Source: Oscillospiraceae bacterium (GTDB taxonomy: Bacteria > Bacillota > Clostridia > Oscillospirales > Oscillospiraceae). Taken from it: a DNA stretch of 64,000 nucleotides. The DNA is taken from assembly GCA_015068455.1 (NCBI GenBank), contig SVKO01000001.1:241825-305824 (forward strand), given 5' to 3'. The position numbers and the translations under genes were made by a program. Of this stretch, positions 41,135 to 44,349 are shown piece after piece. The notes beneath the pieces were generated by a model. The model was not told the origin of the DNA, did not search any database, and saw only the letters and a list, made by a program, of their open reading frames with translations. Within the stretch, counting starts at the first letter, position 1. Each line of letters starts with the position of its first letter.

Positions 41135-42535
41135 ATGGTTTTTGCAGATCTCTTTTTCATTTACTTCTTCCTTCCGCTGTGCCTGATCTTCTATTTCACG
41201 GCAAAAACGCTGGATCGGAAGAATCTTGTACTTATCATTTTCTCACTTGTTTTCTATGCCTGGGGCAAGCCCCTGTACGTGCTGCTTCTGCTGTTCAGCG
41301 CGGGATTCAACTGGGCCCTCGGCCTGGCACTGGAGAAGTTCCGCGGCACGCCCATGTCCAAAATCGTGCTCGGCGCGGGTATTGCGGTGGATCTGGCGCT
41401 GCTGCTGGTATTCAAATACAGCGGCGCCCTGTTCCGCGCCCAGACCAAGGCCGCGCAGGCCGCCATGCCCATCGGCATCGGCGTTTTCACCCTCCAGGCG
41501 GTCTCCTATCTTGTCGACTGTTTCCGGGAAAAGGTGGCCGTGCAGCACAGCTTCAAGAAATTCCTGCTGTATCTTTCCCTGTTTCCCCAGCTTCTCGCCG
41601 GTCCCATCGTCCGCTACAGCGCGGTCGAGCAGGCGATCGACGACCGCCGGACCTCCGTGAGCGACGCCTGCGACGGCGCCCTGCGGGTGATCGTCGGCCT
41701 GGCAAAGAAGGTCATCCTCGCCAATAATCTCTACGCCATCGTCACCGCCTTCTTCGGGAGCGACATCTCCGGCCTGAGCGTGCTGGGCACCTGGTACACC
41801 GCCGTCATTTTCACCCTGTACATCTATTTCGAATTCAGCGGTTACGCCGACATCGCCATCGGCCTGGGCCGGATCTTCGGCTTCCGGTTCGACGAAAACT
41901 TCAACTATCCCTTTGCCGGCCGGACCGTCACCGATTTCTGCGGCCGCTGGTATCTCTCCCTGGGCGCGTTCTTCCGCGATTACGTGCTGAGTCTTCCGTT
42001 CTTCGGGAAAAACTACCGATATCTGGGCCTGTTCCTGGTCTGGCTGTGCACCGGCATGTGGTTCGGCTCCGGCTGGAATTTCATCCTCTGGGGCCTGTAC
42101 CTCGGCTTCTTCCTGTTCTTCGAGCAGACCTTTGGCAAAAACATCGTGGAAAAATGGCCCGTCTGGGTCAAGCATATCTACAGCAAGCTCGTCATCGTCC
42201 TCGGCTTCGGCATCTTCTATTTCCGGGCCCCGGGCCAGCTGGTGAAGTTCTTCGGCCGCGTCTCCGGCCTGAGCATGCTGACAAGCCGCGCGCCATTCGC
42301 CGATTCGCTGACCTGGGCGTCGTTTACGGACAACTTCTTCCTGATCGCGGCGGCCGTCATCTGCTCCCTGCCCCTGCTGCCCAGGATCAAGACCTTCTTC
42401 CTGAAAAACCGCAATCACACGGTCTATGCCATCGGGCGCTACGGCGCGCTGGCATGCTGTGCGGCCATGCTTGTGATCCTGAGCATCCTGCTGGCGGGCG
42501 CCGCCGGCAATCCCCTGGCATACTTCCGATTCTGA
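41135..42535 (+). CDS. MBOAT (AlgI/DltB-like) membrane protein lacking the conserved histidines
   Basis: A 466-residue protein with about ten to twelve hydrophobic helices. The order and local sequence follow AlgI-type O-acyltransferases that move acetyl groups across the membrane (NFNYPF, FFRDYV, GWNFILWG). AlgI-like enzymes have WHISL, GLWHG and a nearby H in the WG-YHG turn. Here these are WYLSL (Tyr273), GMWFG (Phe310) and LYLG (Leu323), so all three histidines are replaced. The codons TAT and TTC read cleanly, so this is not a frame artefact. Acyltransfer is doubtful; a channel or scaffold role is inference. It is followed 26 bp later by a deacetylase chimera. Confidence 0.85.
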   Translation: MVFADLFFIYFFLPLCLIFYFTAKTLDRKNLVLIIFSLVFYAWGKPLYVLLLLFSAGFNWALGLALEKFRGTPMSKIVLGAGIAVDLALLLVFKYSGALFRAQTKAAQAAMPIGIGVFTLQAVSYLVDCFREKVAVQHSFKKFLLYLSLFPQLLAGPIVRYSAVEQAIDDRRTSVSDACDGALRVIVGLAKKVILANNLYAIVTAFFGSDISGLSVLGTWYTAVIFTLYIYFEFSGYADIAIGLGRIFGFRFDENFNYPFAGRTVTDFCGRWYLSLGAFFRDYVLSLPFFGKNYRYLGLFLVWLCTGMWFGSGWNFILWGLYLGFFLFFEQTFGKNIVEKWPVWVKHIYSKLVIVLGFGIFYFRAPGQLVKFFGRVSGLSMLTSRAPFADSLTWASFTDNFFLIAAAVICSLPLLPRIKTFFLKNRNHTVYAIGRYGALACCAAMLVILSILLAGAAGNPLAYFRF

Positions 42536-42561
42536 GCCCGGCAAGCTGAGAGGTGAACCAT

Positions 42562-43791
42562 ATGAATGAAGATCAAATCCGCGAAAACTCCGGGCAAATC
42601 CAGGAGGACATCCAAGCCGAGCGCCGAAAAAAGCGCTGGCAGCGCCGCCGCAGCTGGACGCGGGCCCGCAGCTCCGGCGTCAGCGTTCTCGTGCTGGGCG
42701 GTCTGCTGCTGCTGACGGCCCTGTTCCTGCTGGTGTTTCCCCGCTCCACCGTCTCGGCGCTGGAGAACCGGACGCTGACGCCGTTCCCGAAGTTCAGCTT
42801 TGCCGGCTGGTTCGACGGGGAATTCACCTCCGGCGTGACCGACCACTATGACGACACGGTGCCCTACCGCGATTCATTCCAAACCATGAGCAACCGATTT
42901 AAACGCATGTTCGGTCTTCACCCCGGCAAAAACGCAGAAGACGTCAGCAATACGCCGGCCGATCCGGAGGATTCGGCCGCGGACGCAGAGACTCCGGCAG
43001 ACGCCGCACAGACCGATCCCGCCGCCCCGGCGGACGCCGCCGCTTCTGCCAACACCGCGCCGTCCGGCCCCATGGTTCCGGCCGAAGCCGAGGTCCCGCC
43101 CCTGCCCGACTATTCCGATGCGACGGGCCGCGTTGCCCTGACCTTTGACGACGGGCCCAGCGGGCCCAACAGCGAAGTCCTGCTGGCCATGCTCGCCGAG
43201 CGGGACGTCAAGGCGACGTTTTTCCTGTGCGGCTACCGGATCGAGGAATGCCCCGCGGAGCTGTGCAAAAAGCTGGCCGAGCCCGGCCATGAGCTGGCCA
43301 TGCACGGCTACAGCCACACCTCCTTCAAGGAGATGTCCTCCGGCGGGATCCAGGACGAGCTTTCCAAGACCAAGGAACTGATCCAGAAAAACGCGGGCGT
43401 CACGCCCACGCTGGTGCGGCCGCCCTACGGCGCGATGAATGACGATTCGTACGAGGCGCTGCGGCAGGCGGGCTATCCCGTCATCATCTGGGACGTGGAT
43501 ACGGAGGACTGGCGCAACTCGGACCCCGAGGACGTCGCCAACACGGTCTTCGAGCAGGTGCAAGACGGCAGCATCATCCTGATGCACGATATGCACCAGA
43601 GCTCCGTGGACGCCGCCGCGCTGATCATCGATCAGCTCAAATCCGAGGGCTATGTTTTCCTGACTGTTTCGGAGCTGGCCCAAAGCATGGGCGTGACCCT
43701 TGCGCCCGGCGAGCGGTACCGCAGCATTGAGCCGCCGGAGGATGAGAGCGCCGCGGAGGAAAGCTCCGCGGACGAAAGCGCCGAAGAATAA
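42562..43791 (+). CDS. DHHW N-terminal segment fused to a polysaccharide deacetylase
   Basis: A 409-residue protein. A cytosolic basic start (1-36) and one membrane helix (about 40-60) lead to a segment (65-118: ENRTLTPFPKFSF, then FTSGV.DHY.D..PYRDSF) matching the N-terminus of DHHW/AlgX-like proteins that partner MBOATs. An Ala/Pro/Asp-rich linker (121-185) connects to a complete NodB domain (188-375): TFDDGP (Asp196-197), His248 and His252, RPPYG (286-290), WDVDTEDW and LMHD (His342). It should deacetylate a surface glycan outside the cell. The GTG nine bases upstream is less likely than ATG 42562 behind GAGAGGTG. Confidence 0.88.
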   Translation: MNEDQIRENSGQIQEDIQAERRKKRWQRRRSWTRARSSGVSVLVLGGLLLLTALFLLVFPRSTVSALENRTLTPFPKFSFAGWFDGEFTSGVTDHYDDTVPYRDSFQTMSNRFKRMFGLHPGKNAEDVSNTPADPEDSAADAETPADAAQTDPAAPADAAASANTAPSGPMVPAEAEVPPLPDYSDATGRVALTFDDGPSGPNSEVLLAMLAERDVKATFFLCGYRIEECPAELCKKLAEPGHELAMHGYSHTSFKEMSSGGIQDELSKTKELIQKNAGVTPTLVRPPYGAMNDDSYEALRQAGYPVIIWDVDTEDWRNSDPEDVANTVFEQVQDGSIILMHDMHQSSVDAAALIIDQLKSEGYVFLTVSELAQSMGVTLAPGERYRSIEPPEDESAAEESSADESAEE

Positions 43792-43914: not shown

Positions 43915-44349
43915 TCAGCCCGGTGTTTTGCCAAACAGCTTGGCCAGCGGCTCAATGATGGTCTTCAGATCGCTGATCGCCTCATTGAGCGTTTTGATGT
44001 CCAGGGCGTCCACCGCTTCGCCCGCCACGCGCAGGCTCTCCTGGGCCTGCAGGGCCGTATCGCCGATGTCCGTGCTGAGCTTCTCCCAGTCGACGGCGGA
44101 GAGCTCCTTGGTGATCGTCTCCAGCTCCACGGTGATCTCGTTCCAGTCCACCTCGGCCAGCTCCGCCGTGGGCACGGCGATGTCGTCCACGATCCTGTCC
44201 ACCTTGACGATCGTCTGGGAGATCTGGTTCACGTTCTGCACCACGACCACGCAGGTGACCACCAGCGCCACCACCATGACGGCCAGCATCAGGACGATCA
44301 GCCGGTTGAGCCGGTTTTGCTTCTTCAGCAGCACATTTGTTTGATCCAT
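43915..44349 (-). CDS. Single-pass membrane protein with heptad-like repeats, function unknown
   Basis: A 144-residue protein: a short basic cytosolic start, one long hydrophobic helix (about 16-38) and an extracytoplasmic helical region in which VDW-containing units recur (VDWNEITVELETI, then VDWEKLSTDI). The pattern suggests an amphipathic or coiled-coil stalk, reminiscent of methyl-accepting or division-type stalks but without their motifs. Not recognised. It has its own promoter divergent from the GTPase gene. Confidence 0.65.
   Translation of the reverse strand: MDQTNVLLKKQNRLNRLIVLMLAVMVVALVVTCVVVVQNVNQISQTIVKVDRIVDDIAVPTAELAEVDWNEITVELETITKELSAVDWEKLSTDIGDTALQAQESLRVAGEAVDALDIKTLNEAISDLKTIIEPLAKLFGKTPG

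Follow-up and report, generated by a model that had tools for sequence, protein, structure and literature searches.

An acyl-adding membrane machine appears rebuilt into a decoration-removing one in a single Oscillospiraceae genome

Within the window, by which we mean the whole 64-kb stretch of DNA analyzed, we identified a two-gene locus that seems to have changed from an acyl-adding device into a decoration-removing one, a change seen in one genome. The reading that we favor, and to which we would give about even chances, is that the acylation machine was taken apart and that its docking half now serves to keep an active deacetylase bound to an MBOAT without catalytic function.

The first gene (41135..42535, plus strand, as are all features below unless stated) encodes a 466-aa MBOAT protein of the AlgI/PatA/DltB-like type, judged from Pfam, an alignment with DltB, and the columns of its orthologues. 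The protein belongs to the MBOAT fold family (PF03062, 41.7 bits against a cut-off of 27) with DltB as its nearest solved relative by sequence and by fold, and its AlphaFold2 model keeps the MBOAT fold, with DltB as the top match. A phmmer alignment places Tyr273 (codon 41951..41953) opposite DltB His289 and Phe310 (codon 42062..42064) opposite His336, the invariant MBOAT histidine; both DltB histidines are named as active residues (PMC11035591). To assess conservation, we took one genome per species and collected 80 orthologous MBOATs in a DNA scan with the peptide patterns W[LF]CTGMW and MVFADLFF, which omit the histidine codons and therefore leave the sample unbiased for histidines. Both columns are His in 80/80 orthologues, so that the window protein lacks the pair of histidines expected of a catalytic MBOAT. 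The initial annotation had listed three lost histidines, of which Tyr273 and Phe310 stand and Leu323 falls away, since 74 of the 80 orthologues have Phe and the other 6 have Tyr in this column, where DltB has His; on the aligned columns, two histidines, not three, were lost in the window lineage. Further changes were seen: Cys269 (codon 41939..41941) takes the place of a near-invariant Trp of the orthologues and aligns with DltB Trp285, described as a tunnel-blocking residue (PMC11035591), and the funnel residues near DltB Tyr128 have become smaller (S116G, F117V, F120L). The C-terminal acyl-shuttle motif FXYXXF (42515..42532), FLYFRF in the orthologues, reads LAYFRF here, with Tyr463 and the last Phe kept and the first Phe gone.

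The second gene (42553..43791) encodes a 412-aa chimera of a DHHW membrane anchor and N-terminal part, a linker, and a NodB deacetylase; its likely start is the ATG at 42562, because the orthologues begin at M4. The DHHW-derived part (residues 4-131, 42562..42945) comprises a cytoplasmic basic stretch, a TM helix, and an ENR..PKFSF..GEFT..YDDTVPYRD region. The DHHW model matches residues 71-171 over model positions 1-105 of 385 only (3.7e-11), leaving the catalytic SGNH/DHHW domain missing, and over 162 residues the chimera N-terminus shares 46% identity with the complete DHHW protein of the sister pair, so that its DHHW origin is genuine; the model match, this identity, and the orthologue starts together led us to reject a chance likeness. 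The reading frame runs unbroken through the junction into a NodB/CE4 domain (residues 189-394, 43117..43734) that matches Polysacc_deac_1 at residues 192-310 (1.8e-31) and retains all five motifs (TFDDGP, HGYSH, RPPYG, WDVDTEDW, ILMHD), placing the chimera in the CE4/NodB family. The best NCBIfam model is PdaB (7.8e-51), with a score of 172.6 bits against the equivalog TIGR02764 that lies below its curated cut-off of 237.4, so the chimera is not a member of that equivalog. The earlier description of the partner as a DHHW anchor and N-terminus joined to a complete NodB, which would have failed had the N-terminus proved unrelated to DHHW proteins, was thus confirmed. Convergent to the chimera, a gene on the minus strand (43915-44349) encodes a small protein that has one helix, a repetitive coiled tail, and no credible family.

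Comparison with relatives indicates what the locus looked like before the change. The congener, the one further genome of the genus examined, carries an orthologous MBOAT (66% identity) with RWHISL and GMWHGASWN, followed directly by a full 531-aa DHHW protein, so that the sister pair is intact. Across the orthologous loci, 70/71 readable partners have either the DHHW motif of the catalytic domain or the C-terminal part of a DHHW protein, and the lone exception is shortened after its N-terminal part, beside an MBOAT that keeps both His. These intact pairs mark the change in the window as a real replacement rather than a misread N-terminus, and they bear out the view that an acylation pair lost both catalytic centers and gained an intact deacetylase at the same locus. 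The chimera is known from one genome only, and a search of 400 family and 245 order genomes (partly overlapping) returned no second match spanning the DHHW and NodB parts; the same chimera beside histidine-keeping MBOATs, which the initial annotation would have counted against itself, was accordingly not encountered there. In the whole window genome (99.67% complete) we found no DHHW catalytic domain, the sole DHHW match being the chimera N-terminus (model 1-105); the congener has four DHHW genes. Among individual loci, L102 (4980-5555) has a DHHW partner of only 191 aa, corresponding to the N-terminal part, with FkbH directly next and both MBOAT histidines kept; the partner in L120 likewise stops after the N-terminal part, but its contig ends there.

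The orthologous loci further define an ancestral operon in the order MBOAT-DHHW-FkbH-ACP: of the 57 loci with enough sequence, 49 have an adjacent FkbH gene and 53 encode an acyl carrier protein. Neither FkbH nor ACP was found within the 64-kb window and, set against these loci, the operon of the window lineage has lost both. FkbH enzymes load three-carbon glyceryl units onto carriers, so the ancestral cargo may not have been acetyl. With FkbH and an acyl carrier protein in the operon, the ancestral machine was probably not the plain acetylase that had been proposed; the operon suggests carrier-fed envelope acylation, with a possibly glyceryl-like cargo. The Dlt system is alike in this respect, as a carrier feeds its MBOAT, and the ancestral operon has a dedicated carrier protein of its own. 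An FkbH neighbor is not obligatory, since it is missing beside intact MBOAT and DHHW genes at L071, L126, L135, and L103, the last of which lacks the carrier too. Elsewhere in the window genome, a second, different MBOAT with intact histidines is accompanied by an SGNH-like partner, an acyl carrier protein, and FkbH (L019 5345-9941; G000:C4 ~247-252 kb), and this set may have taken over the ancestral function. In the literature searched, we found no paper describing such a link between FkbH and an MBOAT and none on an MBOAT-NodB pairing.

Next to these losses stands the question of the graft's source. The window genome encodes a secreted PdaB-like protein (G000:C4; L016 951-1724, minus strand) with an apparent orthologue in the congener; the chimera NodB domain shares 61% identity with the former and 52% with the latter. 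In the tree, the chimera domain groups with the genome's own PdaB-like gene, apart from the congener orthologue (SH-aLRT 92, not a starred branch), a pairing that probably places the graft after a duplication in the window lineage. The secreted PdaB-like gene of this genome was thus the probable template of the NodB domain, and acquisition from outside was rejected on the same grouping. Its branch is five times longer than that of the paralogue (0.73 vs 0.14), with the motifs intact. The PdaB-like homology (~189-394) starts where the SGNH domain of the sister protein would begin, and the Pro/Ala/Glu-rich linker ahead of it has a similar counterpart in the sister protein.

These observations can be assembled into the following scenario. 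In the ancestor, an acyl group, the likely product of FkbH, would have reached the MBOAT on an acyl carrier protein; the two MBOAT histidines would have passed it on to the shuttle Tyr at the C-terminus, and the DHHW protein would then have transferred it to a surface glycan. In the window lineage, FkbH and ACP have gone from the operon, a NodB domain that probably derives from the secreted PdaB-like protein of the same genome has taken the place of the DHHW catalytic domain, and the MBOAT is left without its two histidines and without much of its catalytic funnel. The chimera would now be an active N-deacetylase at the outer membrane face, acting on nascent wall glycan, with the dead MBOAT still needed as its scaffold. 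Docking is suggested by analogy: the MBOAT PatA acetylates the Tyr of a C-terminal FXYXXF motif and PatB uses such an acetyl-Tyr, the PatA/PatB complex model places the N-terminal membrane part of PatB against PatA helices 1 and 17, and PatB stays active in vitro without it (PMC12148441), which fits a role in anchoring and docking. The chimera has kept this part, by which DHHW/PatB-type proteins are fixed in the membrane and would be docked to their MBOAT, and the window MBOAT keeps helix 1, with its catalytic funnel lost and its shuttle motif lost in part. A deacetylase docked on a dead MBOAT is the account that explains most simply the kept anchor, the exchanged catalytic part, the kept helix 1, and the losses in funnel and shuttle motif. 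Counting against the scaffold are the relaxed constraint on the MBOAT, which a relic would also show, the restriction to a single genome, the non-significant clustering of changed columns given below, and the shuttle Tyr, kept though presumably useless.

The main rival, which we consider quite possible although somewhat improbable, holds that the chimera is a NodB deacetylase that gained a membrane anchor through the fusion, next to an MBOAT left over without a role and in decay. The loss of both histidines, the funnel, and the shuttle Phe would suit a relic, as would the absence of acyl supply genes from the locus, the presence of the other MBOAT-SGNH-ACP-FkbH set in the genome, and a poorly modeled catalytic region (AlphaFold2 pLDDT ~48-68 over residues 251-320 vs 75-94 for the sister catalytic region, from the same alignment). 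So would the rates, which we assessed by counting changes unique to the window genome or to the sister against two outgroups, with rpoB as the clock gene (AlaRS is absent from the congener draft). The MBOAT has 76 unique changes in the window vs 17 in the sister, 4.5 times as many, and generally faster evolution of the window genome was rejected by rpoB (11 vs 12). A branch model gave the MBOAT an omega of 0.18 on the window branch vs 0.053 in the background (LRT 17.1 for the difference), values that are rough because synonymous sites are near saturation.

Other features speak against a relic. Omega = 1 on the window branch was rejected (LRT 27.5), and the 466-codon frame holds neither stop nor frameshift; had the excess of ~77 missense changes been neutral, about 2 to 3 stops should have come with them, and the probability of seeing none is ~0.05-0.15, a value that counting frameshifts would lower further. 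Plain neutral decay of the MBOAT therefore seems unlikely, and the gene may be under weak constraint for another reason. The DHHW-derived part of the chimera is not accelerated (7 vs 6 unique changes, counts only, over a short part) and keeps 17/19 conserved columns, more than a bare anchor needs. The first MBOAT helices are almost unchanged: of the 211 columns with the same residue in 90% or more of the orthologues, 44 changed in the window protein, but only 1/27 in residues 1-60, which correspond to the PatA helix 1 region contacted by PatB in the published model, vs 43/184 elsewhere (p 0.02), a contrast set beforehand from the docking idea. All other regional contrasts are post hoc, with 2/43 changed at residues 132-222, 8/17 at 105-131, 10/20 at 262-286, and 5/9 at the C-terminus, and the strong contrast of 3/70 vs 41/141 was picked after the data were seen. 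A general test for clustering of the changed columns was not significant (p 0.11), and conserved columns mapping to the DltB active-site pocket changed in 5/11 cases vs 39/200 elsewhere (p 0.054). In light of the 4.5-fold acceleration and the relaxed constraint on the MBOAT, the initial argument that both genes change in a matching direction, against random decay, was too strong; plain decay is better countered by the intact frame, by an omega clearly lower than 1, and by docking helices that have hardly changed.

A second alternative, which we regard as improbable, grants the MBOAT a new activity, either an open passage serving as a conduit, which the initial annotation had in mind for acyl groups or glycan, or an altered chemistry such as acetate release or substrate transfer to NodB. 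Cys269 in place of the tunnel-blocking Trp, the smaller funnel residues, and the kept Tyr463 are compatible with such a change; however, no new conserved motif is seen in what is one sequence only, model confidence is low in exactly that region, and a CE4 deacetylase needs no conduit. Its specific form, in which an MBOAT without histidines and blocking Trp would act beyond a scaffold as an open membrane passage cooperating with a docked NodB, for instance to let a substrate or product pass, and an acyl-exporting enzyme would have become a working part of a deacetylation machine, we hold to be a shade less probable still. Finally, an assembly or sequencing artefact, which could be suspected from the restriction of the chimera and the histidine changes to one genome, is hardly credible in an assembly of 12 contigs at the completeness given above, with a window contig of 567 kb, a NodB copy that differs by 39% from the sole close candidate source in the genome, and MBOAT changes spread over >100 codons, all in frame.

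The locus can be compared with several known systems. With PatA/PatB1- and AlgI/AlgJ-type MBOAT-SGNH pairs, the window pair has in common the gene order, the MBOAT fold, the position of the C-terminal Tyr shuttle, and the DHHW N-terminal anchor with the next conserved region, to which direct orthology with intact MBOAT-DHHW pairs is added. Unlike them, it lacks both MBOAT histidines and the SGNH/DHHW catalytic domain, with a CE4 deacetylase instead; judged from its genes, it descends from an MBOAT-SGNH acyltransferase pair and no longer qualifies as one. The DltB/DltC/DltD/DltX machinery of teichoic acid D-alanylation provides the closest solved structure of the MBOAT, but the window pair is without counterparts of His289 and His336, a carrier, and a transferase partner. 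PdaB/PgdA-type CE4 deacetylases share with the chimera the NodB domain and its five motifs; in contrast to them, the chimera has a DHHW anchor in place of a secretion signal, an MBOAT neighbor, and faster evolution than its paralogue. MBOAT relatives without catalytic His exist in eukaryotes, namely HHATL and GUP1; these keep the fold as the window protein does, but are not known to have an SGNH or CE4 partner.

The locus offers a natural experiment on MBOAT-SGNH machines, as the docking half evolved at a normal rate while both catalytic centers were lost, suggesting that docking is separable from catalysis. If the pair is functional, one domain exchange would turn an enzyme that adds groups to a surface glycan into one that removes them, and, as far as the literature searched shows, no bacterial MBOAT retained as a partner after losing its catalytic function would have been described before. 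Beyond the window, the comparison revealed a conserved MBOAT-DHHW-FkbH-ACP operon in gut Clostridia, which we observed across Acutalibacteraceae-type genomes (L060-L139, e.g., L061 6001-11080).
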